NCBI RefSeq assembly: GCF_007747215.1
Contig: NZ_CP036273.1
Location: 3,146,322 to 3,210,321 of the forward strand
Direction of reading: 5' to 3'
Length of the DNA: 64,000 bases
Source: Urbifossiella limnaea
Lineage (GTDB): Bacteria; Planctomycetota; Planctomycetia; Gemmatales; Gemmataceae
The notes beneath the pieces are model-generated. The model was not told where the DNA came from. It was given only the letters and a program-made list of their open reading frames with translations, and searched no databases. Shown piece by piece: positions 13,779 through 41,547 of the stretch (the first letter of the stretch is position 1; each line of letters begins with the position of its first letter). A program made the position numbers and the translations under genes.

Positions 13779-13850
13779 GCGGGTGTCCCGGGGGTGAACC
13801 GGGCGTACTGTAACCGTGTCCCGTCGGAAAAGGAAAGCCCGGAGCCGTCG

Positions 13851-26827: not shown

Positions 26828-27055
26828 TTAAACGGGAGCCGCGATGAGGCCGATGAACCCCATGAGCGCGGCGACCGCGGCGAAGATGAGCAGCGTGACC
26901 CACCAGCCGGGGAAGGTGGACGGCGGCGCCGGTGGGGCGTTCGGGTCGGGCGGCGGGTCCTTCACCATGCCGCCGAGTACCAGCACCAGGCCGACCAGAC
27001 ACAGGCTCGCCAGCAGCCTACACACCGGCGGCAGGCACGCGAACGGCGGCGTCAT
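26828..27055 (-). CDS. Small two-helix membrane protein, last gene of the FtsH-like cluster
   Basis: A 75-residue protein with two hydrophobic helices (about residues 11-31 and 50-72) joined by a proline-rich loop DPPPDPNAPPAPP. No family is recognised. Its ATG overlaps the TGA of the 1131-aa gene (ATGA), which suggests translational coupling and membership of the same system, perhaps as a membrane tether or an effector. A small toxin-like role is possible but is not shown by any motif. Confidence 0.65.
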   Translation of the reverse strand: MTPPFACLPPVCRLLASLCLVGLVLVLGGMVKDPPPDPNAPPAPPSTFPGWWVTLLIFAAVAALMGFIGLIAAPV

Positions 27056-30000
27056 TCGCCCGCCCCGTCGCGCCGGGCCGCGGCCATGTCGCGGTGGATG
27101 CGGCGGCGGATCAGGAACTCGTCGTCGGCCAGCCAGCCGCGGACCGCGGGGCCGAGGGCGAAGTCGTCCGTGACCACGGCGCGGACCACCGTGTCCACCA
27201 ACTCCAGCGGCTTGAGCGTGAAGTAGCGGTTCGTGGAGCCGGTGGTGGAGACGCGGTCGAGTTGCTGGAACAGTTCTTCGAGCCGGCCCAGGGCGACGCG
27301 CGGCGGGGCGAACCCGAGCGCGTCGGCGTAGCCGATGGCGAGCTCGGTACGGTCGCGGTCGTCGTCCGATTTCGGCGCGAACAGGAGGCGCCGGCGGGCG
27401 TCGTCGAGGAGGCGGGTCGCGGCGTCGTCGTCGCCGGCGGCGAACCAGCCGACCGCGATGCCGAGCCGCGCCGGCGGCAGCGGGGCGTCGGCGGGCCAGT
27501 TGCCGCGGTCGGGGTCGAGTCGGTCCAGAATCGCCGCCGAATCGGCCGACATCCCCAGCTTGTGGAACGCCCGAAACACCGGCCTCGCGGAGCGAACGAG
27601 CGCGGCGCGGACGGTCGCCTGGGCGCCCGCGTGGCGGGCCAGGTAGTCGGCCACGGGCCGCAGTTCTGCCGCGAGCCCGTACCGCGCCGCGGCCCCGGCG
27701 GCGCCGACGAACAGCCGGGCCAGGTACTTCGGGAGTCGGTCGACGCGCTCGGCCTCCGTCCACCGGCCGACCTGAAGCCAGGCGTCGAACCACGTCGCCG
27801 CGGGGACGACGTGGCCGAGCGTCTCGCGGACGGCCCCTTCGTCGAGCCGACCGGAGGCGTCGAGCAGCGTCAGGGCCACGCGCGGCACGGTGGCCGAACA
27901 CGGGTCCGCGGCGCAGACGTCGAGTAACTCGCGGGCCTCCCGCCGGCTCGTGGTGGGGTCGGTGTTGTCCGCGAGCAACTGTAACCGTTCGCCGAGCCGG
28001 TCGGTGCCGCGGACCGGGCGCACGTCGTACCCGCGGAAGCCGACGCCCTCGCGGACCGGTTCCAGGACGCGCGAGTGGTCGCGGAGCCGGTCCACGGCGT
28101 GGCGCGCGAGCAGCGGCAGGGCGTCGTACCGCGGCAGCAGGTCGGCCGGGATGCCGCCGGCCGGCGGGCGGCCGTCCTGCACACCACGAATGCGGTCGGC
28201 GAACAGGCCGGACAGCACCGCGTGCGTCTCCGGCTCGACGCCCGGCCCCGCGGCCCGGCCCAGCGCCTTCCGCGCCCGCGCCGCCCAGTCCACGGACAGC
28301 GACCGCTCGCCGAGGCAGCCGAGCCCCCACGCCAGCATCAGCTGCGCGTACGCGGCCGTGCATTCGGTCTCGGGGTCGATGCCGACCGCCCGCAGCCGGC
28401 CCGCCGGGCCGAGTCGTTCGACCCAGTCCACCACGGGCTTCTTGACGCGGACGAGCCAGTCGCGGGCGGTGCGGAACCGCTCGGGCGACGCGGTGCCGTG
28501 GAAGCGGAGGAACGACGGCCCGTCCAGGTCGAGCCCCGGTCCCTTCTCGCGGAGACGGGCCACGAGTCGGTCGCGCCACCGGGCCAGCCCGAGGGCGTCG
28601 CCGCCGCTCAGCCGCGTCGCCCCACGCCGGGCCAGCCACGCGGACCGCGCCGGCAGGTCGTCGAACCGCTCGTCCAGCAGCGCGAGCACGCGCGGCAACT
28701 CGCCGATAAGTTCGGCCGGCGGCTGCGCCGCGAACGCGGCGCGGGCGGTGTACGCGGCCACGACGCGGGCCACCCCGACGCGGCCGGGGTCGGCGAGCAA
28801 CCGCTCGAGCGGCTCGGCCGGCGGGCGGCGGGCGGAGCGACATTCGGCCGCGTACCACTCGTCGAGCCAGTCCGTCGGCGGGGCGTCGGCCTCCCACGCG
28901 GCGTTCGCCCAGCACACCGCCGCATCCCCGGCGTTCCCGGTCGCCCCGTACACGCCGGCGAGTTCCGCCCACGCCGCCGCCCGCTCTTCGGGGCCGAGCC
29001 GGTGAACTGACCGCACGAGCCGGGCCTCGAGTTGCTGTCGCCGGGCGGCGCGGTCGGCACCGTGGAGCAGGACATCGACCGACGCCGCCGGACTCGCCGG
29101 CCTCGTTGCCGCCGCCGCGCTCGGCCGCGGCGCCGTGGGTTTGGCGGGTCGCCATGCGGCTAGCCGGCCGAGCGTGCGGGACAGCCACCCGCCGTGCGCA
29201 GCCGGATCGAGCTGCGACTCGTCCAGTGGGTACGCCGGCAGGGGCGCGAGTTCGACCTCGTCGAGGGTCGTGTCGTCGGCTTCGTCCGGCGTGTCGGCAT
29301 CGAACCCGGCGAGAGCGAACGGGTCCGGCCACACGCCCGAAGCGACCAGCGGCGTGGCGGTCGGGGCGGTGTACGACACCCAGCCCGTGAGCGGCCGGAA
29401 CGCCGAGCGCGGGACGGATCGCGTTACGAGTTCCGCGCCGGCGGCGTCTGCCCAGGTGAGATGATCGTCGCGGATGTTCAGCAACCGGGCCAACTCACGC
29501 GGGCGGAGCGGAGGGTGAAGTGCGTGACCGGCCGGGACGAAGCACCCGGCCGCCAGCGGGTCCGGCTGATAGCCCCTGAGCAGAATCGGCAGCGGCCCAG
29601 CGGCGGGGCCCGCGCACCGGACCACGAGCCCGTCCCGGCAGACGGCCACCTCGTACCCCGCTAGCGTGCGCTCCGCAGCTTCCCGGCAGAGCTGCCGCAC
29701 TGCTTCGGCGTCGGCGTTCGGCACCACCCACAACTGCGGCTCCGCCGGCTCGGCCGACCGACGCAGCCGGACTCGGACCTCGATGCGGGGTAGTACGCGA
29801 TCCGGCGGCCGCGCGGTTGCGGGGCCGGCGACGGCGAACGACTCGAGTTTGGGGTCGGGGACGCCGGCATGGAACGTGACCGACCGCGGCGGCCGCAGCA
29901 GCAGGACGTGGCCCGGCGGCAACGTGAAGCCGTCGGGGTACGGGTGCTCCCACCCCGCGATTACCCAAACGCCGCGGGCCTGCTCGGTAAACAGCTCGAC

Positions 30001-30447
30001 TCCCGGTTCGGTCGCGCGATCGACCAGGTCGGCCGGCGGGTTCTCGCAGCGGACCCACGTCCGCCGGTCCTCGCCGGGCAGTTGTCGCACGCCGACGGGC
30101 CGCGGCCCGCCGCGGGAGAGTGCGCGAAGGAATCGACCGACGAGTTCGTCCGGCAGCTCGAACAGCACTTGGTTACCGAGCGGGCCGGTCGCGGGTCGCA
30201 GGGGCAGGAGCTCGGCCCAGCCGCCGACCTGTTCGGGGGTGGGGTGACCGCCGCCGAGCGTCTGCACGCCGAAGCGGCCGAGTGCGGCGAGCGTCGATTG
30301 CGGGATCGGGGCGGCAGGTTCGACCCAGAGGCGGCCGAGGGCGTCCCACCCGGCGCGGGCCGGGGCGGCGGTCACCGCGGCCGGCAGCACCCCGCTGGCG
30401 AGCACCAGCCGGAGGGCGTCGGGGTTCGGGAAGAAGAGCGCCGGCAT
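27052..30447 (-). CDS. Giant hypothetical protein, paralogue B of tandem pair
   Basis: This 1131-residue protein has no signal peptide or membrane helix. It aligns by eye with its 1159-aa neighbour: the N-terminal module FFPNPDALRLVLASGVLP, a GRLWVEP strand, RSAFRPLTGWVSY near 350, a repeat-like helical segment GDAAVCWANAAWE near 500, and the C-terminal box WLADDEFLIRRRIHRDM. The second half reads as alpha-helical repeats of TPR/HEAT character. I infer a cytoplasmic adaptor or substrate-recognition subunit of the FtsH-like system. It is 42 bases from paralogue A. Confidence 0.72.
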   Translation of the reverse strand: MPALFFPNPDALRLVLASGVLPAAVTAAPARAGWDALGRLWVEPAAPIPQSTLAALGRFGVQTLGGGHPTPEQVGGWAELLPLRPATGPLGNQVLFELPDELVGRFLRALSRGGPRPVGVRQLPGEDRRTWVRCENPPADLVDRATEPGVELFTEQARGVWVIAGWEHPYPDGFTLPPGHVLLLRPPRSVTFHAGVPDPKLESFAVAGPATARPPDRVLPRIEVRVRLRRSAEPAEPQLWVVPNADAEAVRQLCREAAERTLAGYEVAVCRDGLVVRCAGPAAGPLPILLRGYQPDPLAAGCFVPAGHALHPPLRPRELARLLNIRDDHLTWADAAGAELVTRSVPRSAFRPLTGWVSYTAPTATPLVASGVWPDPFALAGFDADTPDEADDTTLDEVELAPLPAYPLDESQLDPAAHGGWLSRTLGRLAAWRPAKPTAPRPSAAAATRPASPAASVDVLLHGADRAARRQQLEARLVRSVHRLGPEERAAAWAELAGVYGATGNAGDAAVCWANAAWEADAPPTDWLDEWYAAECRSARRPPAEPLERLLADPGRVGVARVVAAYTARAAFAAQPPAELIGELPRVLALLDERFDDLPARSAWLARRGATRLSGGDALGLARWRDRLVARLREKGPGLDLDGPSFLRFHGTASPERFRTARDWLVRVKKPVVDWVERLGPAGRLRAVGIDPETECTAAYAQLMLAWGLGCLGERSLSVDWAARARKALGRAAGPGVEPETHAVLSGLFADRIRGVQDGRPPAGGIPADLLPRYDALPLLARHAVDRLRDHSRVLEPVREGVGFRGYDVRPVRGTDRLGERLQLLADNTDPTTSRREARELLDVCAADPCSATVPRVALTLLDASGRLDEGAVRETLGHVVPAATWFDAWLQVGRWTEAERVDRLPKYLARLFVGAAGAAARYGLAAELRPVADYLARHAGAQATVRAALVRSARPVFRAFHKLGMSADSAAILDRLDPDRGNWPADAPLPPARLGIAVGWFAAGDDDAATRLLDDARRRLLFAPKSDDDRDRTELAIGYADALGFAPPRVALGRLEELFQQLDRVSTTGSTNRYFTLKPLELVDTVVRAVVTDDFALGPAVRGWLADDEFLIRRRIHRDMAAARRDGAGE

Positions 30448-30489
30448 GACTGGAATGTAGCTCGAAAAGGGCGCCCGGCCAACGCCGGC

Positions 30490-33400
30490 TCACGCCCCGG
30501 CCCGGTGCAGGTCGGCGTGGACCCGCTTGCGGACCAGGTACTCGTCGTCGTCCAGCCACTTCTTCCCGGTCGGCCCGAGGGCGAACTCGTCGCTCACCAG
30601 CGCCCACACCACTTCTTCGATAACCCGCACGTGGAACAGCGAGAACGCCGAATTCCCGGTCCAGGAGTTCCCCAGGTTCTTCCCCTCGAACCGGTGGAAG
30701 AGCTCGCCGATGCGCCCGAGGCCCAGCTCGGCCGGTCCGTGGCCGAGGGCGGCGACGTAGGCGCGGAGCAACTCCGCGAGCGGCTTCGCCATCAGAGTGT
30801 TCTTCACCCACCTGCCGCCGAGCAGCTCCTCGCGGGCCACGTCGAGTAGCGGTACGGCACGGTCGATCATGCCGAACGTCAGCTGCCCGCCGGCCAGGGT
30901 CAGGAGCGTTTGCAGCGCCGCGGACCAGCTGTCGGGCCGGGCCGAGAACTTTCGCCGTAAGGCGTCCGGCGTCGCGCCCTGAAGGACCTCCGCCTGGAGG
31001 CGCGTGAGAAACCGATCGACCTCGTCGCGGAGGCCGAGCCGCTTCAGGCCGCGGAGGAACGCCCCGGCGACGATGTTGATGAGCTTGTACCGCGCCTCCT
31101 CGGGGCGGGACCGGAGCAGCGCCGCGAACCCGTCCACGACCGGCCGCAGGAGATCGGTGCGACCGAAGTGTGCGGCGGCGAACACGGCCCGCTCGACGAG
31201 TTCGCCCTGCCGCCGGAGCACGTCCGCGGGTTCGCCCGCCGCCGGGGGCTTCGCCGCGAGGCCGGCTAGTACGCCGGGGACGAGCCGCAGGAGTTCCGCC
31301 GCGAGCGCCTCGCCCGCCCGGCCGGCCAGCGGTAACGCTTCGTGGAGCAGGTAGAAGTGGACTTCCCGGAGTTCCTTGCCGGGGAAGCCCTCGCGCGCCA
31401 GCTTCCGCACCTTGTCCGCCAGCCGGGCGGGTTCGCGGAGTTGGGCCAGCGTCAGCAGTTCCTTGCGGAGCGGGTCGGAGTACGCGGTGTTGAACATCAC
31501 GTAGGCGTCCCGCGACTCCTCCGGGTCCACCACCCGCGACACCTCGCGCATCTTGTCGATGTGGTGCGTCGAGGTCTTGAACGGGTTGTCCGACTTCTCC
31601 CCCTGTCGCCGGCTCATCTCCACTTTGCCCTTCTGTACGATCGCGTCGAGGGCGTCGAGGACGGGCGTCGGCAGCGGCCCGGCGTGCGGCCTGCCGGCCG
31701 CCGCGTCGGCGACGCGGTGGGCGAACGCGCCGTGCAGGAACCCGGCCGTGACCGACGCCGCGACGGCGTCGAAGCTCTTGTTGAGCTGCCAGTCCTCCGG
31801 CACCGGCCGGACCATCACACGCCCGGCGGCGTCCACCAACTCTTTCGCGGCGGCCGCCTCGCCGAGCCGTGCGAGGGCGAAGGCGAAGAACAGGTCCACG
31901 TAGGGCACGGTCGGCGGGTGGTGGCCGACCCACGCCCGCGCCGCGGCGTGCAGGTCGAGCGCCTTCTCGCGCACCGCTACCATTCGCTCCGCGTCCCGCA
32001 GGCCGGCGAAGCGGAGGAAGCCGGGCAGGTCGCGCTCGGCCCGCAGCCCCTGTGTCAGGAGTCGTTCGAGCAGCCGGTCGCGGGCGCGGGCGAGCCCCTT
32101 CTGGTCGCCGCCCGCCAGCTTCGCCAGCCTGGCCGCGGCCAGCCACACGGCGCGGATCGGCAGCGCCTCCTGGTGCGCGTCCACGTACTTCTGCACCGCC
32201 GGCAGCCGCGTCGCGAGCCACTCCGGCAGCGGCGACCGCGACGACGCGGCCAGGAACGCCGCCACCGCCGCCCGCGGTTCCGCGACCGATGGTGAGCTGC
32301 CCTTCAGCTTCGCGTCGAGCTCGGCGGGGCCGACCGGGCGGCCGGCCAGCTGCGGGAACTCGGCCGCGGCCCACGCCGCCTCCCACTCCGGGTGCGGCTC
32401 GCCGTGCTCCCACAGCGCGTTCAACCAGCACACCGCGGCGTCGGAGGTGGCATCGCCGGCGCGGCTGAACGCCTCCGCGAGTTTGGGCCACAGGGCCGTC
32501 CGCTCCGCGGAGTCGAGCGGCCCCTCGACCGCCAGGAACTCCTCGGCCAGTTCCTTCGCCCGCAGCTTCCACTCGTTCGGCGCCACCACCTCCGGCGCCG
32601 GCGCGACGTAGGAAGTTGCTTCGGGCTTCACCAGCTTCGGGCGCGTCGCCTTCGTTTTCGGGGCGGCTGGCTCGGGGACGGGCACGTTGTCCTTCGCGGT
32701 CGGCTCGCGGTTCGATTTGTCGGGCTTCGGCGGCGGGCCGCCGGCGTCGGTGCAGACGAAGTGTTCGAAGTCGAACCGTGTCGCCCCGATCCACGCCGCG
32801 AGCGGCGCCTGCTCGGCCTCGATGACGTAATCGACCCAGTCCTCCAGCGACCGGAACGCCGCGTCCGGCACGCTCTCGGGCGTGAAGCCGGACGCGCCCG
32901 AAGGGTAGAGCCAGACGACGCGGTCGGGGTCGTCGGCGAGGAGCCGACGGACGGCGTCGCGCCGTAGCTGCGGGTGGAGCCGACGGCCGACCGGGAGGAA
33001 CAGGTTCGGCAGCTTCCAGTACGGCTTGAACGCGACGGCCTTCTCCAGCGCCAACTCCGGCGGCGCGAGTTTGGACGGCCGCGTCCGCAGCACCGCGACG
33101 CGGGTGCCGTCGGCGGCCGCGGCGACGGCGAACATCAGCCGCTGCGTCAGCCGCTCGTCGGCGTCGCGGACGAGGGCGTCGAGCTGGCCGACGGGGTCGT
33201 CGCGGAGCACCCACAACTCGGCCACGTCGGCCGCATTGCCGGCGGTGAGGCGGAGCGGCACCGACACCGGCTCCGGGGTCGGGGCGGGCTCCCACGCCAC
33301 CGGCGCCGCCGGCAGCGGGAACTCGGTCAGCTCGTACACGTCGTGGAACGGGGCGGCGTCGAGGAACTGCCAGGTCGCGGGCGCGGTCAGCAGCGCGAAC

Positions 33401-33969
33401 TGCCCCTCGGCGACGCGGAGCTGCGCGGCGAGCGGGTGCGTGTAGCCGAGCTCGACCCACACCCGCGGCGCGCGTTCGAGGTACGCCCGCATCCCGCCGG
33501 CCGGCCCGTCGAGCGCCCGCAGCAGCGTGTAGTACGGCGGGCCGATCACGCGGAGCAGCACGCGGCGGTCGTCGCCGTCGGCCGCAAACCAGCGGAAGCC
33601 CTGGCGGTCGTTGCCGAGCCGCAGCAGTTCCGTGACGACGGCCGGCAGGTCGTCCGCGCTCGGCAGCTCGAACAGCACCGCGGCCCCGCTCGCCACCTCG
33701 GGCGTGCCCGACTCCTTCGCCAGGGGCACGAGTTCGACCCAGCTGCCGACCTTGCGGATGTCGTCGGAGCCGTGCCGCTTCGAGCCCTTAACGCCGAGCC
33801 GGTCGAGCACCTTGAGCGTCGTCTTGGAGATGCTTTGCGTCGGCTCGACGTACAGCCGGCCGTGCGCGTCCGTGCTGACGGCCGCGGGGGCGAGCGTGAC
33901 GTCGGCGGGGACCAGCCCGGTGGTGAGGGCCAGGCGCACGGCTTCGGGGTCGGGGAAGTGCAGGATCAT
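30490..33969 (-). CDS. Giant hypothetical protein, paralogue A of tandem pair
   Basis: A 1159-residue soluble protein homologous along its length to the next gene: LHFPDPEAVRLALTTGLVP at the N terminus, GRLYVEP, AFRSLEDWVDYVIEAE near residue 380, SDAAVCWLNALWEHG near 515 and WLDDDEYLVRKRVHADL at the C terminus. A lysine- and proline-rich linker (about 420-470) separates a beta-rich N-terminal part from a long helical-repeat part. It resembles the large accessory proteins of FtsH ternary-type loci, but I cannot confirm the family. It starts ten bases after the 87-aa gene. Confidence 0.72.
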   Translation of the reverse strand: MILHFPDPEAVRLALTTGLVPADVTLAPAAVSTDAHGRLYVEPTQSISKTTLKVLDRLGVKGSKRHGSDDIRKVGSWVELVPLAKESGTPEVASGAAVLFELPSADDLPAVVTELLRLGNDRQGFRWFAADGDDRRVLLRVIGPPYYTLLRALDGPAGGMRAYLERAPRVWVELGYTHPLAAQLRVAEGQFALLTAPATWQFLDAAPFHDVYELTEFPLPAAPVAWEPAPTPEPVSVPLRLTAGNAADVAELWVLRDDPVGQLDALVRDADERLTQRLMFAVAAAADGTRVAVLRTRPSKLAPPELALEKAVAFKPYWKLPNLFLPVGRRLHPQLRRDAVRRLLADDPDRVVWLYPSGASGFTPESVPDAAFRSLEDWVDYVIEAEQAPLAAWIGATRFDFEHFVCTDAGGPPPKPDKSNREPTAKDNVPVPEPAAPKTKATRPKLVKPEATSYVAPAPEVVAPNEWKLRAKELAEEFLAVEGPLDSAERTALWPKLAEAFSRAGDATSDAAVCWLNALWEHGEPHPEWEAAWAAAEFPQLAGRPVGPAELDAKLKGSSPSVAEPRAAVAAFLAASSRSPLPEWLATRLPAVQKYVDAHQEALPIRAVWLAAARLAKLAGGDQKGLARARDRLLERLLTQGLRAERDLPGFLRFAGLRDAERMVAVREKALDLHAAARAWVGHHPPTVPYVDLFFAFALARLGEAAAAKELVDAAGRVMVRPVPEDWQLNKSFDAVAASVTAGFLHGAFAHRVADAAAGRPHAGPLPTPVLDALDAIVQKGKVEMSRRQGEKSDNPFKTSTHHIDKMREVSRVVDPEESRDAYVMFNTAYSDPLRKELLTLAQLREPARLADKVRKLAREGFPGKELREVHFYLLHEALPLAGRAGEALAAELLRLVPGVLAGLAAKPPAAGEPADVLRRQGELVERAVFAAAHFGRTDLLRPVVDGFAALLRSRPEEARYKLINIVAGAFLRGLKRLGLRDEVDRFLTRLQAEVLQGATPDALRRKFSARPDSWSAALQTLLTLAGGQLTFGMIDRAVPLLDVAREELLGGRWVKNTLMAKPLAELLRAYVAALGHGPAELGLGRIGELFHRFEGKNLGNSWTGNSAFSLFHVRVIEEVVWALVSDEFALGPTGKKWLDDDEYLVRKRVHADLHRAGA

Positions 33970-33979
33970 GCGACGGGGG

Positions 33980-34243
33980 TCAACCGGGGTTGCTGGACTT
34001 GTGCCGCTGCGGGGCGTCGGGCTCCGCGGCCGGCGCGGCCGGCTCGCGCGCCGGCTCGCGCACGATCACGATCTCGCCGAGGTCCTCGGCGTTGACGCCC
34101 TTGCCGACGAGCTTCTCGACGAGCGTGCGGTGCAGGTTCTCGTGCTCGACCGGCAGGGCGTCGGGGTCGGAGTCGAGCTTCACGATGATGTTCTGCTTGC
34201 CGCTGTCCGGGTCGCGGCGGAGCAGGATGGTCATGGTCGCCAC
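33980..34243 (-). CDS. Small 87-aa protein of the FtsH-like cluster
   Basis: The protein has a beta-hairpin-like start (TILLRRDPDSGKQNIIVKLDSD), a helical middle (HENLHRTLVEKLVGKGV) and a disordered Ala/Pro tail. No family is recognised; its size and position between the AAA+ peptidase and the giant proteins suggest a dedicated adaptor. The GTG at 34243 has GGAG six bases upstream and was preferred to ATG 34234. Gaps are 13 and 10 bases on either side. Confidence 0.65.
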   Translation of the reverse strand: MATMTILLRRDPDSGKQNIIVKLDSDPDALPVEHENLHRTLVEKLVGKGVNAEDLGEIVIVREPAREPAAPAAEPDAPQRHKSSNPG

Positions 34244-34256
34244 GGCGGGCTCCGGG

Positions 34257-36422
34257 TCAGGACGGCTTGGCGGGGTCGGGCACGGCCGGGCCGGGGGCGC
34301 CCACGTCGGCCGGGAACTTGGCCCGCAGCTCGGCGACGATCTCGGCCACCCGCCCGCCCTCGATCGTCTTCTTCTCCAGCAACTCGTCGCGGACCCGAAC
34401 CAGGTCGGCCTTGTGCTTCTTCAGGATGGCCGCGGCGCGGGCCTGGCACTGCACGATGAGCGTGTTCACCTGCCGGTCGATGGCCTCGGCCTGCGACGCG
34501 GACAGGACCTCGCGGCGGCCGTCCTTGTCGCGGAACGTGCGGAGCGGGGCGGCCAGGCTGCTCATGCCGAGCGTATCGACGAACACGCTGGCCAGCTCGG
34601 TGGCGCGGGCCAGGTCGGAGCGCGGGTTGCCGAACCCGCTCGCCCCGGTGGACACGTCGCCGAGCACGAGCCGCTCCGCCTCGATGCCGCCGTACAGCAC
34701 CGTGAGGATGTCGAGGAGTTCGTTGCGGCTGTGGCCGATGCGGCGCTTGTCGTGCTTGAACGCGGTGAAGAACGGCGCCCACGGCATGTCGCTCTGGATG
34801 GTCACCTTCTCGGGCGGCGGGTGGTTCGGGCAGAAGATCGCGCACACGAAGTGCCCGGCCTCGTGGGTCGACACCATGGCGGCGTCGTTGTCGGCCAGCT
34901 CGACCTTGTCCTCGAACTCGGACAGCGCCCGCTCGATGACTTTCGGCGTGGTGGCGTCGGTGATTTCGTCGCGCATCCGCAACCGGGCGACGGCGCGGCA
35001 CAGGGCGTTCAGGTGGTCGCCGCTGAACGGCGTGCCGGTCGGCGTCATGTAGTTGTCGCCGGTCCGGCGGACGGAGTAGTCGAGTGCCTCGTCCGTCATC
35101 TTCAGCCGCATCTTGCGGTCGTAGATGGCGAGGATGTCCTTGCGGTCGTCGTCGTCGGGGTAGGGAATGTGGAGGTGGAACTCGAACCGGCCGGGGCGGA
35201 GCAGGGCGGGGTCCAGGCTCTCGACGAAGTTCGTGGTGCCGACGACGAAGACGAGTTCGTCCTTGTGGAAGCCGTCCATTTCGGTGAGGAGCTGGTTCAC
35301 CATCGAGTGCTCGACGCCGCTGCCGGTGTACGTGCCGCGGGCGGTGGCGAACGAGTCCAGCTCGTCGAACACGATGATCGACGGGGCCGACTGCCGGGCC
35401 TTGTGGAAGATTTGCCGCAGGTTCTCCTCCGACTCGCCGACCCACTTACTCTTCAGTTCCGGCCCGGACACCACGGTGATGGCCGCGCCGATGCTTGCGG
35501 CGATGGCCTTGGCGAAGTACGTCTTTCCGGTGCCGGGCGGCCCCCAGAAGATCATCCCGCGCGGGATCAGTTCTTCGAGCCGGGCCACGTCGTCGGCGTC
35601 GGTCGCGGCGTCGCGCTTGCGGAGCACGTCGAGGATCTCGGCCTTCAGCCGCTGCTTCACCTTGGCGTAGCCGCCGATGTCGGCGTCCAGATCGACGGTC
35701 GGAATCTCCATCGCGCCGGACAGCGTGGCCTGCCGCAACTGCGTGTAGGCCCGCTTCGGGTCGGCGGGGTAGTCCTCGCCGTCCAGCGTGCTCAGGAGCT
35801 TCCGCAGGCGCACTGCGTTGACGCCGGACACGTACTTGTACAGCTGCAGCGGCGAGAACGTCTTGCCGAACTTCCGCGACTCCTTCTGCGTGACGAGGTG
35901 CTTCAGCTTCGTGCGCGAGATGCCGAGGATGCTGACCCAGTGCGGGAACAGGTTCTCGATCACCTTCGGGAGCGGGAACGACGGGTCTTTGAACCCGAGC
36001 CACACAAGCTCCGGGTTTTCGTACAGCAGCGGGATCACCTCCCGCGCCTCACCCGTGAGTCCGCCCTGGCTGGTGGTCAGCAGGTCGAGGTGCGGTAGCA
36101 CCACGACGCGCCGCTCGACCGCGCCGCGGACGGCGTCGCGGAGCTGGCCGATCATCGTGCCGATGAGCCCCTGCTGCACCGCCCCCTGGGTCGCGCCGTC
36201 GCGGGTGCGGCCGTCGAGGTACAGGCACTGGAGCTTGAACTCTTTCAGCCGGGTCCGCAGGTTCAGATAGAGGTACGGGGCGAGTTCCTTGTCGCACTCG
36301 ATGAGGACGGGCAGCCCGCGGACGAGCCGGCCGGCGACCTCGGCCAGCTCCTGGGCGTACGCCGCCTCGACCGCCTGGTCGGCGGACAGGTCTTTCGGCA
36401 GGAGGTTCTCGACCAGGTTCAT
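34257..36422 (-). CDS. Soluble FtsH-like AAA+ ATPase / zinc metallopeptidase
   Basis: The 721-residue protein has no membrane helix, unlike ordinary FtsH. Residues 1-215 look like a degenerate AAA domain without a P loop (RRVVVLPHLDLLT as a Walker-B-like strand), as in Ycf46. The active AAA domain has Walker A GPPGTGKT (294-301), pore loop KWVGES, Walker B IIVFDELD (about 349-356) and RPGRFEFHL. The peptidase domain has HEAGH (520-524), GGIEAERLVLGDVSTGAS and the third zinc ligand Asp603 in RSDLARATELA, so proteolysis is probably active. It should unfold and degrade chosen proteins, with neighbours as recognition subunits. Confidence 0.9.
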   Translation of the reverse strand: MNLVENLLPKDLSADQAVEAAYAQELAEVAGRLVRGLPVLIECDKELAPYLYLNLRTRLKEFKLQCLYLDGRTRDGATQGAVQQGLIGTMIGQLRDAVRGAVERRVVVLPHLDLLTTSQGGLTGEAREVIPLLYENPELVWLGFKDPSFPLPKVIENLFPHWVSILGISRTKLKHLVTQKESRKFGKTFSPLQLYKYVSGVNAVRLRKLLSTLDGEDYPADPKRAYTQLRQATLSGAMEIPTVDLDADIGGYAKVKQRLKAEILDVLRKRDAATDADDVARLEELIPRGMIFWGPPGTGKTYFAKAIAASIGAAITVVSGPELKSKWVGESEENLRQIFHKARQSAPSIIVFDELDSFATARGTYTGSGVEHSMVNQLLTEMDGFHKDELVFVVGTTNFVESLDPALLRPGRFEFHLHIPYPDDDDRKDILAIYDRKMRLKMTDEALDYSVRRTGDNYMTPTGTPFSGDHLNALCRAVARLRMRDEITDATTPKVIERALSEFEDKVELADNDAAMVSTHEAGHFVCAIFCPNHPPPEKVTIQSDMPWAPFFTAFKHDKRRIGHSRNELLDILTVLYGGIEAERLVLGDVSTGASGFGNPRSDLARATELASVFVDTLGMSSLAAPLRTFRDKDGRREVLSASQAEAIDRQVNTLIVQCQARAAAILKKHKADLVRVRDELLEKKTIEGGRVAEIVAELRAKFPADVGAPGPAVPDPAKPS

Positions 36423-36468
36423 GGGCTGTTGTCGCCGTCAGCAGGGGGTGGATGGCGGGCGCGGGGTG

Positions 36469-37041
36469 TCACACTTCGATCGTGATCGTCAGCGACCCGC
36501 TCGCGGCGTCCTCGCTGATCTCCTTGACGGTGCCGAGCTGCTTGGCCTTCTCCTTCAGCGCGTCGCGGGTCACCTTGTTGACCACGTCCGCGACCTCGGG
36601 CTGAAGCTCTTGCAGCTTCTTCTCCAGTCGGTCCGTCGCCTCCTTCTGGAGGTCCGACTGCTTCTCGTCGAACCGCTTGTCCAGGTCTTGCTTCAGCTGC
36701 TCGCGGACGCGGTCGCGGAGGCTCGTCTCGGTCGGCCCCACGTCGTTGAACCCGGTCGCGTCGCGCTTCGCCTCCTGCTCCACCGTCGCCTCCGACTCGG
36801 CCTTCACCGTTACTTCCCCGCTGCACGGGTCCACGGTCACGGTGGTGGAGCCGTCCTTGCGCACGAGCGTGCCGTCGGGCTGCTCCTCGAAGCCGCGCTC
36901 CTTCAACTCCTGGCGCAGCAGCGTGGCCATGTCCTCGGGCGGGAGGATTTCGAGGAGTTCGAGCGTGGTGCCGATCTCGTCCCCGGCCTTGAGGTGGCGC
37001 GTCTCCGACTCCTTCACGCTGATCCGGTACGCTCGGCTCAT
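36469..37041 (-). CDS. Coiled-coil protein of the FtsH-like cluster
   Basis: A soluble, highly charged 190-residue protein. Residues 1-85 form a compact alpha/beta part (LELLEILPPEDMATLLRQEL, then ERGFEEQPDGTLVRKDGSTTVTVD), residues 95-160 a long coiled coil rich in Lys/Asp/Glu, and the C terminus a strand SLTITIEV. A conserved small module of Ycf35/DUF1257 flavour is possible, because such proteins accompany Ycf46-like ATPases, but I am not confident. It lies 46 bases upstream of the AAA+ peptidase gene in the same operon. Confidence 0.68.
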   Translation of the reverse strand: MSRAYRISVKESETRHLKAGDEIGTTLELLEILPPEDMATLLRQELKERGFEEQPDGTLVRKDGSTTVTVDPCSGEVTVKAESEATVEQEAKRDATGFNDVGPTETSLRDRVREQLKQDLDKRFDEKQSDLQKEATDRLEKKLQELQPEVADVVNKVTRDALKEKAKQLGTVKEISEDAASGSLTITIEV

Positions 37042-37065
37042 GGCACCCTCGTCGTCGGCTGTCGC

Positions 37066-38133
37066 CTATGTTCGGAGTGGCTCGATCGCCTCGACCGCGG
37101 CCCGGGCGCGGGCGGCGACGCGGTCGCCGCCGGCCGCCTCCCAGTCCTGCTTCCACAGCTGGCTCGCGGCGTACCCTTCGTCGAAGTAGCCGACCGCCCG
37201 GTACTTCTCCTGCCAGCTGGCAAGCACCGCCATCTGCCGCGGCAGCGCCACCGCCGCGCGCTGGGTGTCGAGCCGGTCGGCGAGCCGGGCGGGACCGGGG
37301 CCGCCGAGGCCGCTCGTCCAGAACGCCGGCAGGAGGTCATTCTGGAACAACCCCGCGTTGGCGTGCAGGACGAACCGCGCCAGGTCGGGCCGACCCGCGC
37401 TTTCAGCCGCCCCCAGGTACGCCGCGAGGCCCGCCGCCTCGGCTCGGCCCTGCTGCCGCATCCGCCGCCAGTCGTCGATCTGCCCCTTCGCCCGTTCGGC
37501 CCGTAACCAGCGCTGCGTCAGCAGCGGTTGTAGGCACTCCAGCATCACCGCCCGCTCGCCGGCGAACATCGGAGCGAAGTCCGGCGGCGCGGGCTCGGCC
37601 TCGTCCGCCAGGTCGGCCGCCGAGCCGAGCCAGGCGAACCGGTTCGACCGGAACGCCGCCTTCCGCCTCAACACGGCCGCGACCTCGGGGTCCGGCCGAC
37701 AGGCCTCGAACGCCAGCCAGAAGAAGAACTCGTCGGCCGCGGTCAGGTCCGCGGGCGGGGCGTCCCACGGGGTCCGCGTGTCGTGAACCCGCTCGGCCGT
37801 CGCCCACAGCAGGAACTCGACCACGTGTGGTGAGAACGTCAGTGCCCGCTCGTCGAGCGGGGTGCGGTCCCACGCCCGACCCGACTTCGGCTGCCCACTG
37901 CGGAGGTGGCGGTCGGCCCGCCAGCCGCCGGCGCGGACCAGGAACAGCACGCACGCCTTCGCCAGGCTGTCCTGCACCAGTTCGACGGCGTTGCGGCTCA
38001 GGCACGCGGGGCGGGTGTGGCTCGTGCGGAGGAGCTTGTAGCCGTCCTCCGCGGGGAAGCGGCCGAGACAAAACCTCACCAGCCGGATCAAGTCGGCCTC
38101 GAACTTCGACAACGGGCGCGGGGCGTCGGTCAT
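37066..38133 (-). CDS. 355-aa hypothetical protein of the FtsH-like cluster
   Basis: A soluble, mostly alpha-helical protein with no motif I recognise. Notable stretches are SKFEADLIRLVRFCLGRFP at the N terminus, VVEFLLWATAERVHDTRTPW and DEFFFWLAFEACRPDP in the middle and WQEKYRAVGYFDEGYAASQL near the end. The ATG at 38133 overlaps the stop of the radical-SAM gene (ATGA), so the two are translationally coupled; the longer in-frame start at 38262 is therefore rejected. Likely a specific subunit of the system. Confidence 0.72.
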   Translation of the reverse strand: MTDAPRPLSKFEADLIRLVRFCLGRFPAEDGYKLLRTSHTRPACLSRNAVELVQDSLAKACVLFLVRAGGWRADRHLRSGQPKSGRAWDRTPLDERALTFSPHVVEFLLWATAERVHDTRTPWDAPPADLTAADEFFFWLAFEACRPDPEVAAVLRRKAAFRSNRFAWLGSAADLADEAEPAPPDFAPMFAGERAVMLECLQPLLTQRWLRAERAKGQIDDWRRMRQQGRAEAAGLAAYLGAAESAGRPDLARFVLHANAGLFQNDLLPAFWTSGLGGPGPARLADRLDTQRAAVALPRQMAVLASWQEKYRAVGYFDEGYAASQLWKQDWEAAGGDRVAARARAAVEAIEPLRT

Positions 38134-38765
38134 GACGCGGCGCCCGCGACGGGCGTGCGGCGCCACCCCTTCCACAACCCCGCGGCGGCCCCGGCCGGGA
38201 AGCCGTTCACGGTCACCTCGCCGCCCCGGACGCGGATTTCGAGCGTGTTTCGCTTCCGCCACTGGTCGTCGAAGCGGTAACGATTGGTGAGGAAGTGAAT
38301 GCCCTGGTTGCGAGAGCCGATCCAGCGGCGCTCGGTGTCCGGTTGGTCGCGCAGGTACGGGCCGTCCACGAGGATGTCGGTGCGGTCGAGCAGGCCGGCG
38401 GCGTCGGGTCGGTCGCGGAGCTGGTCGAGGGTGTAGCCGCTGAACACCATCACGCTGAGGTTCAATAACCGGGCCGCGTCCGCGAGTTCAACTGCACCGA
38501 CAGGGTGGGAGAAGGGCTCCCCGCCGAGCAACGTGATTCCCTCGACGCCCTCGCGGTCACGGGCGCGCTCCATCTCGTCCGCTACGTCCGCCACCGTGCG
38601 CTGGTCCCCGCCGTCGAACGGCAGGAACTCGGGGTTGCAGCAGCCGGGGCAGCGGAGGGGGCAGCCCTGGAACCACACCGCGAATCGCTTCCCCGGCCCC
38701 TCCGCCTCGGTACACGCCACCACCTGGGCGATGCGCACCGTCGGCTGTTCGGTCGTGCGGGTCAT
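38130..38765 (-). CDS. Radical SAM activase-like protein (single 4Fe-4S domain, NrdG/PflA type)
   Basis: A 211-residue protein with the CxxxCxxC cluster motif (Cys35, Cys39, Cys42 in GCPLRCPGC), the aromatic FQG before it, and GITLLGGEPF as the SAM-binding GGE motif. Size matches NrdG-like activating enzymes that install glycyl radicals, yet no glycyl-radical enzyme or anaerobic reductase gene is near. It may modify a protein of this cluster instead. It is 40 bases downstream of rtcA and coupled to the next gene by ATGA. Confidence 0.85.
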   Translation of the reverse strand: MTRTTEQPTVRIAQVVACTEAEGPGKRFAVWFQGCPLRCPGCCNPEFLPFDGGDQRTVADVADEMERARDREGVEGITLLGGEPFSHPVGAVELADAARLLNLSVMVFSGYTLDQLRDRPDAAGLLDRTDILVDGPYLRDQPDTERRWIGSRNQGIHFLTNRYRFDDQWRKRNTLEIRVRGGEVTVNGFPAGAAAGLWKGWRRTPVAGAAS

Positions 38766-38805
38766 GCGGGGTCCGTTCCGGAGCGTACCCCCCGATTATA
38801 CCCCA

Positions 38806-39843
38806 TCAACCGGGCGCCGGCGCCACCCTCACCGTGCCGGGTTCGCCCTCGCGGCCCTCCAACACCACCTCGCGATCGACGAACGCCCGCACGGTGTCGA
38901 TGTTCGTTGTCAGGTGGCGCGTCACCTCCGACGTGCGGAAGGTGCTGCCGTCCGGCGAGAACACCAGCGGCAGGAGGAGTTGGTCAGCGGAGTGCGGGTC
39001 GACCGGGGCGGCCGCGGCGCGGTAGCGGAGGGCCTCGTCCGCGGCGTCGTCGGCCACCGATTCGGCCGGCTTACCGCGCTCGCCCAGGCCGAAGAACAGT
39101 GTCGGCACGGGTGCCTGCCGGAAGATCACCGCGGCCACGGTGCCGGGGTTCGCGGCCTCCCACTCCTCCAGCGGAATATGCGACTCGACGCCGTCCGCCT
39201 TCAGGCGCACCGACAGCCGCCGGGCTTGCCTGCGGGCGATCCCTTCGGGCAGTCCGGCGACGGCCGAGAAGCCGCCGGCGGTGGTCAGCTCGGGGGTGGT
39301 CGTGAGGGTCATTCCGCGGACGCGGGTACACGGGTGGATGGTGGCGCGGACCTCGCCGCCGCCGCGCGGGTAGAAGCCGGGGCGGATCATCTCCTGGTCC
39401 AGGTCAATGCCAAGCCGCTTCAGGTAGCCGCCCCAGGTGGTGGTGTTGAAGTGGTAGCACGGGGCGTGCGTGTTGTGCGTGCCGCCGGTGACCGTGACCG
39501 TACTCGGCGCGTCGCCCCGAAGGGCGAGCGGCAGCGCGACCGTGTGCAGCACCAGCGACGTGGACCCGGCCGTGCCGATGGAGAAGGTGTAGTTCCCCGC
39601 CTTCACCGGCCCCGGCTCGAAGTACAGCACCGCGGAGCCGACCGAGGCGCCTTTGTAAATCGCGCCGCAGATCGCGCCCGCGGCCTTCACGCACATCAGG
39701 TGCTGCGGCTGGAGCCCCGGCTTGGGGCGGTTCGCCCGGATGTTCAGGAGCTTGAACGGCCGGGCGGTGAGGGCGGCGAGCGCGAGGGCGCTGCGGAGGA
39801 TTTGTCCGCCGCCTTCGCCGCGGCTGCCGTCGAGTTCGATCAT
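38806..39843 (-). CDS. rtcA: RNA 3'-terminal phosphate cyclase
   Basis: A 345-residue enzyme that converts RNA 3'-phosphates to 2',3'-cyclic phosphates using ATP. The N terminus IELDGSRGEGGGQILRSAL is diagnostic. LQPQHLMCVKAA, GTAGSTSLVLHTVALPLA and the adenylated histidine in DPHSADQLLLPL are all present. ATG 39843 gives a start like E. coli RtcA; 39888 is possible. No rtcB or rtcR is in the window. It heads the minus-strand run that continues into the FtsH-like cluster, so RNA damage could be one input. It is divergent from the DUF2293 gene. Confidence 0.9.
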   Translation of the reverse strand: MIELDGSRGEGGGQILRSALALAALTARPFKLLNIRANRPKPGLQPQHLMCVKAAGAICGAIYKGASVGSAVLYFEPGPVKAGNYTFSIGTAGSTSLVLHTVALPLALRGDAPSTVTVTGGTHNTHAPCYHFNTTTWGGYLKRLGIDLDQEMIRPGFYPRGGGEVRATIHPCTRVRGMTLTTTPELTTAGGFSAVAGLPEGIARRQARRLSVRLKADGVESHIPLEEWEAANPGTVAAVIFRQAPVPTLFFGLGERGKPAESVADDAADEALRYRAAAAPVDPHSADQLLLPLVFSPDGSTFRTSEVTRHLTTNIDTVRAFVDREVVLEGREGEPGTVRVAPAPG

Positions 39844-39942
39844 GCCGGCTGACACACCCGTGCTCCGCTTGTTCCCCACGTCGGACACGCGGCGGCCACG
39901 CCGGGTTCAGATTACGCCGCCCGCCGGCCGATCCTACCCCGC

Positions 39943-40635
39943 ATGTCCGACCAGACGCTGACCGCCCGCCCCGGCCCAACCGACCGCACCGTCCGCACCG
40001 CCGACGGCAAGGTGATTCCCGTTCCCGACGGCTGGGAACTGCTCCCGCCCGGCGACCCGGGTGTGACGCGCCGCGTGAAGGCCGCCGGCCCGAGCTGGAC
40101 GGTGCAGGAGCAGCGCGGCCGCAAGGTGTTCTCCCGCGGCGTGTGGGCTCCCGCCGCGACCATCGCGGCCGTGCGCGCCGAACTGGAGGTCGAACGCGCC
40201 GACCCGGCCTACGCCCGCAAACTGGCCGCGGGCGCGAAGCGGCGGGAGGCGGCACAGGCGGAATACGTCGAGGACTTCACCGCTGCCGTGCGGGACTACC
40301 TGCGGTTCGATGCGCGGTATGCCGATCTGGCGGGCCGCTTCGCGGTTGCCGTCGCGGCGCACGCCACGCCAGTCGGTAGCGGTACGGTGGCCCGTACGAA
40401 GCGCATCCCCGTCGAACGGCGGGCGGAGGCGGCGGTCATCGCCTGGCTGCGCCACCAGACGACGGCCTACGACGACATGCACGTCGCGCGGGTGAAGGGG
40501 GCTCGCCGCGAGGTGCGGCGGAAGCTGGCGGCGGGGTCGAAGGCGTTGCTCGACCGCTACCGGCGGGGGGAGCCGGTGCCGCCGACGGGATGCGTTCTCG
40601 AACGTGGGCTCGCGAAGGCGGCGCGGGCGGGGTGA
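39943..40635 (+). CDS. DUF2293 domain-containing protein
   Basis: A 230-residue soluble protein. The C-terminal part (about residues 145-205: VERRAEAAVIAWLRHQTTAYDDM then RRKLAAGSKALLDRYR) matches the DUF2293 pattern, with the HxxTxYD motif. The N-terminal part is a short beta-rich segment (ADGKVIPVPDGWELLPPGDP). The domain's function is not established; its basic helices could contact nucleic acid. It is a single gene divergent from rtcA, and its end is four bases from the convergent PhyH gene. Confidence 0.78.
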   Translation: MSDQTLTARPGPTDRTVRTADGKVIPVPDGWELLPPGDPGVTRRVKAAGPSWTVQEQRGRKVFSRGVWAPAATIAAVRAELEVERADPAYARKLAAGAKRREAAQAEYVEDFTAAVRDYLRFDARYADLAGRFAVAVAAHATPVGSGTVARTKRIPVERRAEAAVIAWLRHQTTAYDDMHVARVKGARREVRRKLAAGSKALLDRYRRGEPVPPTGCVLERGLAKAARAG

Positions 40636-40639
40636 CGCG

Positions 40640-41476
40640 TCACTCCTCGGTCGGCCGCGGCCGGTTGGCCCAGTGCGCCGGCGGCGGGCCGGCCACGACC
40701 ACGCCCTTGTCGGCCCAGCCGAGGTGGGCCGTCACGTCGGACGCGGTGTACCGCAGCGTCAGCCCGCAGCGGCGGCGCGACGACGTGTTCATCTCCGACC
40801 CGTGCAGCAGCAGGTCCGAGTGGAGCGACGCCTCGCCGGCCTTCAACTCGACGTAGACCGGGTCGCCGTACTTTTCGACGCCCGGCACCGTCAGGTTCAG
40901 CACGTTACTCTCGTCCTGCTCGCTCAACTGCCACGTCAGGTGGCCGAGGACGTGCGTCCCGGGGATGACGCGCATGCAGGCGTTGCCACGGTCGGCGTCG
41001 TCGATGGCGAGCCACACCGTCACCGCCTTGCTCGGCGAGAGCGGCCAGTAGCTCGCGTCCTGGTGCCAGCTCACGGCCTTGCCGTCGCCCGGCATCTTGC
41101 AGAAGAAGTGGGACCCCCACGCGATCACGCCCGCCCCCAGCAGGTCCGACACGACCGCGACGATCCGCGGGTTCGTGAGGATGTCCCACACCCGGCCGTG
41201 CCGCAGGTGGGCCGAACTGATCGAGTAACTGTCCTTCCCTTCGGCCGCATATCGGGCCAGCAACTGGTCGAAGTAGCAGCGGATGTCGGCGGCTTCCTCG
41301 GGGCTGAAGAAGCGGAACGGCTTGAGGTAGCCGTCGCGGTTGAATCGCGCAATTTGCTCCGGCGTGAGCACCTTCGGCTGCTCGTTGACCGACGGGTGAA
41401 ACGAGAGGTCGCGCGGGATGTTGGAGAGTTCGTCCTGGCCGAGGACGGCACGGAACGCGGTCGGTGCGGCGTTCAT
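40640..41476 (-). CDS. Phytanoyl-CoA dioxygenase (PhyH) family protein
   Basis: A 278-residue Fe(II)/2-oxoglutarate-dependent oxygenase. The metal triad is seen as His138 and Asp140 in SWHQDASYW and His225 in LLHGSEMN; Arg in SSRRRCGLTLRY should bind 2-oxoglutarate. Typical features also include FNRDGYLKPFRFFSPEE and IPGTHVLGH. The substrate is not predictable, as family members hydroxylate lipids and small metabolites. The ATG at 41476 was chosen because upstream sequence reads poorly and holds a 14-base palindrome at 41511. Confidence 0.86.
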   Translation of the reverse strand: MNAAPTAFRAVLGQDELSNIPRDLSFHPSVNEQPKVLTPEQIARFNRDGYLKPFRFFSPEEAADIRCYFDQLLARYAAEGKDSYSISSAHLRHGRVWDILTNPRIVAVVSDLLGAGVIAWGSHFFCKMPGDGKAVSWHQDASYWPLSPSKAVTVWLAIDDADRGNACMRVIPGTHVLGHLTWQLSEQDESNVLNLTVPGVEKYGDPVYVELKAGEASLHSDLLLHGSEMNTSSRRRCGLTLRYTASDVTAHLGWADKGVVVAGPPPAHWANRPRPTEE

Positions 41477-41510
41477 GGGATGGCTCGGGAGGAGAGACAG
41501 TGGCGAAATT

Positions 41511-41524
41511 GATTCTATAGAATC
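41511..41524. promoter_or_regulatory. 14-base perfect palindrome upstream of PhyH gene
   Basis: GATTCTATAGAATC is a perfect, AT-rich palindrome 35 bases before the ATG at 41476. On the minus strand it contains a TATAGAAT -10-like element, so it may be an operator overlapping the promoter. Confidence 0.45.
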
Positions 41525-41547
41525 GGTGGCGGCGTCGTCCAACACGA

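Follow-up and report, generated by a model that had tools for sequence, protein, structure and literature searches.

Two adjoining candidate transcription units: rtcA and the FtsH/fvmX gene cluster of Urbifossiella limnaea

In Urbifossiella limnaea, rtcA and the FtsH-like gene cluster that follows it are best read from their sequence as two adjoining transcription units, each with a promoter of its own and with probable read-through from the first into the second (probability about 0.7). The first unit would be rtcA alone, under an upstream motif of its own that may be ECF-like. The second would run from a small radical-SAM gene (rSAM) through fvmX6, fvmX5, the FtsH-like gene, an fvmX3 analog and two fvmX7 genes, and would be started by its own promoter; the putative -10 box of this promoter is in the rtcA-rSAM gap in U. 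limnaea and, in most relatives, over the stop codon of rtcA. Transcripts of rtcA would probably also read into the second unit because no terminator stands between the two, and an own promoter and read-through can coexist. This reading builds on the gene order and its conservation, on the conservation of the motifs and on a kept histidine of RtcA, with promoter activity, read-through and functional coupling as its predicted part.

rtcA precedes a cluster akin to FtsH ternary systems

Positions refer to the window, the whole 64-kb stretch of DNA that was analysed. The features of the locus, in their order along the minus strand, are:

39884..39909, minus strand: TGAAC-N16-GTGTC, candidate promoter motif of rtcA (putatively ECF-like)
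38806..39843, minus strand: rtcA, RNA 3'-terminal phosphate cyclase, 345 aa (PF01137, E=4e-70; PF05189; TIGR03399), with its ATG at 39843
38795..38800, minus strand: TATAAT, candidate -10 box of the rSAM-led operon
38130..38765, minus strand: radical-SAM protein (rSAM), 211 aa, NrdG-like but below the NrdG cut-off (PF13353, PF04055; Fer4_12 and Radical_SAM)
37066..38133, minus strand: fvmX6 protein, all-helical in its predicted model (PF20004, E=1.9e-140; model pLDDT 92.5)
36469..37041, minus strand: fvmX5 protein (PF20003, E=1.6e-76)
34257..36422, minus strand: FtsH-like AAA+ protein with M41 peptidase domain (PF00004 and PF01434)
33980..34243, minus strand: fvmX3-analog protein (PF20002)
30490..33969, minus strand: first fvmX7 protein, modelled with an alpha+beta N-terminal part and a helical-repeat C-terminal part (PF20005, E=4.3e-106)
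27052..30447, minus strand: second fvmX7 protein (PF20005, E=2.2e-54)

As the initial annotation had stated, rtcA ends 40 bases before the radical-SAM gene on the same strand (gap 38766-38805). The ATG of fvmX6 overlaps the stop codon of rSAM by 4 bases; the scan of the fvmX6 protein took in two further codons, up to 38139. The flanking genes are unrelated by annotation, with DUF2293 (on the other strand) and PhyH upstream and GH16 and DUF7133 downstream.

The accessory domains PF20002, PF20003, PF20004 and PF20005 (the last twice) score over their cut-offs, and Pfam names them 'FtsH ternary system'. As far as the main text of Kaur et al. (2020, PMC7159879) describes the simple FtsH ternary systems, the locus shares with them the FtsH-like AAA+ protein, the fvmX domains, the small radical-SAM gene and a planctomycete host, but differs from them in having no MoxR, no recognised vWA, and rtcA alongside. 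PF07726 (MoxR) has no match in the window and 14 elsewhere in the genome, and the scanned proteins of the locus gave no vWA match, a divergent vWA being possible. Because MoxR and a recognised vWA are missing at the locus, we do not file the cluster as a full member of the FtsH ternary systems. The word 'rtca' does not occur in the text of PMC7159879, and our literature search returned no paper on rtcA with an FtsH/fvmX cluster, an earlier listing in the supplementary tables of PMC7159879 being possible.

FtsH ternary systems are described in PMC7159879 with a protein that has two FtsH-type AAA+ domains, the N-terminal one inactive and the second active. The FtsH-like protein here has one AAA match, at residues 290-421, plus the M41 domain, and its residues 1-240, read by eye, may be a degenerate AAA fold. 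A separate 156-aa Peptidase_M41 match elsewhere in the genome (L202:1005-1484, plus strand) starts 6 nt after a TATAAT. The fvmX6 model is predicted to be all-helical and that of fvmX7 to join an alpha+beta part to helical repeats; no PDB structure matches either of them at E<=0.001. A role of rSAM as NrdG or glycyl-radical activase was considered and rejected, since the protein scores 90.8 bits against TIGR02491 (NrdG; cut-off 126.1) and the genome holds no match to the glycyl-radical partner PF01228.

The placement of rtcA is conserved in the family

We surveyed 95 genomes of the family Gemmataceae. The fvmX6 domain occurs in 61 of them and RTC in 62, with both in 53, fvmX6 only in 8 and RTC only in 9, a co-occurrence above expectation (53/8/9/25, Fisher p about 4e-9, uncorrected for relatedness; genomes counted across the family are related, not independent). 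In 39 of the 53 genomes with both, rtcA lies directly upstream of fvmX6 and is co-oriented with it; the two matches are separated by 677-1013 bases, and rSAM stands between them in all 39. The remaining 14 are not adjacent: 13 are clearly apart, and G038, with match fragments on different contigs, is undecidable. The check proposed at the outset, conservation of rtcA at this place, came out in favour for most relatives that have both genes, and a position elsewhere in relatives, named beforehand as evidence against a joint operon, is found in this minority only. The genes next upstream in the window, DUF2293 and PhyH, served as a control and each recurred in 1 of 80 fetched regions. The placement of rtcA at the cluster is far beyond chance. 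The commonest other neighbour matches ALAD (15 loci, all of them linked ones).

rtcA and rSAM also occur as a pair away from fvmX6 in five genomes (G004, G037, G039, G044 and G051), and at 11 loci rSAM heads the fvmX6 cluster with no rtcA in front. On a tree of fvmX6 (57 rows of 59 matched loci, leaving out L097, truncated by a contig end, and L150, whose match was weak and partial), the full arrangement occupies 38 rows, which are scattered across the family and take in the pair at the midpoint root. It requires 7 changes against a shuffled mean of 16.2; the tree has partial support and its midpoint root is for drawing only. We infer that the arrangement is ancestral within the family, with several losses or moves since.

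Beyond the family, fvmX6 is over its cut-off in 2 of 392 genomes of the phylum, that of U. limnaea included, and a scan of genome contigs gave 43 fvmX6 loci, all with planctomycete titles. The distant relative G105 has fvmX6-like, fvmX5, FtsH, fvmX3-analog and fvmX7 genes, with rSAM and rtcA not in view, and two Pirellulales-type loci (L186 and L188) have rSAM-fvmX6 with no rtcA in view, which suggests that rSAM, and then rtcA, may have joined the cluster later. Single loci vary further. G105 carries a P-loop protein between its FtsH and fvmX3-analog genes (L149:3507-4247, minus strand) that by eye seems to resemble a zeta-toxin-type kinase. Another locus (L095, G050) reads RtcA-rSAM-X6-X5-X7 with no FtsH or fvmX3-analog match between X5 and X7, and its FtsH may have been lost or moved. 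The second fvmX7 gene of G027 (L084:1198-4712, minus strand) is in several frames, a pseudogene or an assembly error.

A TATAAT box is kept between rtcA and rSAM

The TATAAT at 38795-38800 (minus strand) is the only one in the 64-kb window on either strand, where shuffles give 0.20, and it ends 29 nt before the ATG of rSAM. The initial annotation had overlooked it. We compared 44 rtcA-rSAM junctions (39 linked and 5 pair loci) and found the box at 37, overlapping the rtcA stop codon in 27 (TA|TAA|T), lying 36 bases upstream of it in 1 and downstream in 9. The 7 junctions without the box include L140, where a misplaced anchor was counted as a miss and the true junction also lacks it. Upstream of rtcA, by contrast, TATAAT occurs in 1 of 59 cases, and at each other core junction at most once (rSAM-X6 1/50, X6-X5 1/56, X5-FtsH 1/47, FtsH-X3analog 0/36, X3analog-X7 1/31, X7-X7 0/16). 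The box holds its position near rSAM, and its offset from the rtcA stop varies. It persists at 5 of 11 loci, Limnoglobus roseus among them, where no rtcA precedes rSAM, and is rare where rSAM does not follow rtcA (1 of 14 near the stop, leaving aside a 15th RtcA truncated at the end of its contig). It thus accompanies rSAM, as separate units would predict.

At 9 of the 37 junctions, 5-8 nt separate the end of the box from an in-frame ATG (starts assigned by rule). This spacing recurs in the genome of U. limnaea, where TATAATN6ATG has 5 sites, each of them at a plausible gene start, and its reversed counterpart has none; GGGTATAAT has 8 sites against 0 in the control. Both observations favour a start signal of the second unit. 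As the main text of PMC12340547 describes the leaderless -10 promoters of Deinococcus-Thermus, the same layout, with a box just 5' of the start and no visible -35, is seen in these 9 of 37 relatives, unlike the candidate box in the window with its 29 nt. For groups with few SD motifs, among them the one planctomycete that it examined, PMC5397173 describes signals consistent with leaderless mRNA, with ribosomal protein S1 or with both. Of the sigma70-type features at the junction, the -10 is perfect and conserved and the -35 is at random level: no -35 box was found with the junction TATAAT, its scores being no better than those of random windows. Together with the 7 junctions lacking the box, this weighs against two units. 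We regard the junction TATAAT as a conserved -10 element with presumptive promoter activity.

The alternative is a single operon headed by rtcA, in which only the rtcA promoter drives everything from rtcA through both fvmX7 genes. It accords with the shared strand, the 40-base gap and the 39 of 53 genomes in which the genes are adjacent and co-oriented, and the lack of a terminator claimed at the outset was borne out: no terminator-like site was found on the minus strand in 36300-40800, and the junction folds no better than shuffles (z=0.21), so that a terminator or hairpin there was rejected. Moreover, rtcA and rSAM overlap by 4 bp (ATGA) in five genomes, one of them (G092) in the same genus, which suggests a common transcript in those genomes and speaks against a promoter of its own for the second unit there. 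A single operon would not, however, account for the conserved TATAAT that 37 of 44 rtcA-rSAM junctions contain and that is also kept where rtcA is missing, nor for the 11 loci with rSAM-X6 and no rtcA in front, and we consider it unlikely. Stop-start coupling through TAATG was also rejected, the ATG being out of frame in several loci (read from distances). The initial annotation had rtcA heading the operon, barring a separate promoter between the two genes. Its same-strand, conserved position stands, and co-transcription is favoured where the genes overlap; sequence nevertheless strongly indicates such a promoter at most junctions.

A different motif accompanies rtcA

Upstream of rtcA lies a motif distinct from TATAAT. 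Among 56 readable rtcA upstream regions (three truncated rtcA genes were dropped), GAAC-N19-TC occurs in 33, against a background of 3.2% per 100 nt, and the longer GAAC-N16-GTGTC in 20, against 0.06%; the patterns were picked after viewing the sequences, so these figures are descriptive. GAAC-N19-TC is present in 23 of 36 linked, 9 of 15 apart and 1 of 5 pair loci, so that the GAAC motif, unlike TATAAT, accompanies rtcA linked or apart. Its absence from 23 of the 56 regions counts against the two-unit reading, as does its -10 half. ECF promoters have AAC at -35 and CGT at -10 as their hallmark, in the description that PMC8103513 gives in its main text; the -35 half of the rtcA motif fits this and the -10 half has no clear CGT match. 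A sigma54 (-24/-12) site upstream of rtcA was rejected, the best scores being about those of random windows.

The genome of U. limnaea holds 12 TGAAC-N16-GTGTC sites, and the reversed pattern occurs twice. One of the 12 lies immediately ahead of a class I (W/Y) tRNA synthetase gene (window 13795-13820, plus strand), another immediately ahead of a tRNA-Leu gene (L211:1501-1526, plus strand). The rtcA-type sites may possibly mark a small RNA-related regulon.

RtcA appears intact and stands apart from RtcB and RtcR

RtcA scores 327 bits against TIGR03399 (cut-off 250). The histidine of RHLTTN, which we take to be the catalytic residue of RtcA, is kept in 58 of 58 readable RtcA proteins of the family (59 rows, one gapped at the site), and rtcA apparently encodes an intact RNA 3'-phosphate cyclase. 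The claim that rtcB and rtcR are not present here proved right for the ten proteins of 27052-41539 in the domain scan, none of which matched RtcB or RtcR. The sole RtcB of the genome, at C1:2993625, is single-copy and lies 190 kb from rtcA beside an archease; RtcA probably serves RNA-end repair with this unlinked RtcB-archease pair. The idea that rtcB travels with rtcA was rejected, none of the 80 fetched regions containing rtcB. RtcR was not found in the genome of U. limnaea and occurs in 1 of the 95 family genomes, G071, where it shares a contig (L137, contig C162) with a divergent RtcA and the fvmX6 cluster is absent. With rtcA and rtcB unlinked and RtcR nearly absent from the family, rtcA here is not part of a classical RtcR-run operon. 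Compared with the rtcBA operon under RtcR as set out in the main text of PMC7790460, the likeness lies in an RtcA cyclase with its histidine kept and an RtcB in the genome; the differences are the unlinked rtcA and rtcB, the lack of a detected RtcR and another upstream motif.

Discussion

A functional link between RtcA and the protease cluster is plausible but unproven. The linkage could instead arise from rtcA being held in place by an rSAM promoter that overlaps its 3' end, or from inherited order, with no shared function, to which we give somewhat less than even odds. The -10 box over the rtcA stop codon at 27 of 44 junctions fits this, as do the rtcA genes found unlinked or without fvmX6. 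The co-occurrence of rtcA and fvmX6 above expectation speaks against it, and so does the rtcA-rSAM pair found away from fvmX6 in five genomes; three of these (G037, G039 and G044) keep the pair with no TATAAT at the junction, so a buried promoter does not explain the pair.

Alternatively, RtcA could be a working part of the FtsH cluster and couple RNA breakage to proteolysis by making or mending RNA ends that are sensed, or left behind, by the complex. The spread of the linkage over the fvmX6 tree and the persistence of the rtcA-rSAM pair apart from fvmX6 would agree with this, as would the rarity in the family of RtcR, which is known to sense RNA ends with a cyclic phosphate. In Salmonella, RtcA-made ends serve as a signal, according to PMC7790460. 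Yet no RtcA was detected in 8 of 61 fvmX6 genomes, it is not adjacent in 14 of 53, the distant G105 cluster has neither rSAM nor RtcA in view, and the fvmX6 and fvmX7 models, matching no solved structure, offer no recognised RNA-related fold; we hold this role to be rather doubtful. More speculative still, and in our judgement a long shot, is a specific scheme in which RtcA and the small radical-SAM protein act as a pair and feed an FtsH/fvm protease complex that lacks MoxR; with RtcR absent, this complex would sense RtcA-made 2',3'-cyclic phosphate RNA ends as a damage signal and respond by targeted proteolysis.

The locus places an RNA-end cyclase beside a predicted conflict-type FtsH cluster in a family-wide neighbourhood, and a candidate promoter box at the end of the upstream gene, by its stop codon, has persisted through long divergence. 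Retention by a buried promoter and joint function can be tested against each other. If such a promoter alone binds the genes together, their linkage is uninformative on function; if the rtcA-rSAM pair works jointly, it would point to an RtcR-free RNA-damage response in Planctomycetota.
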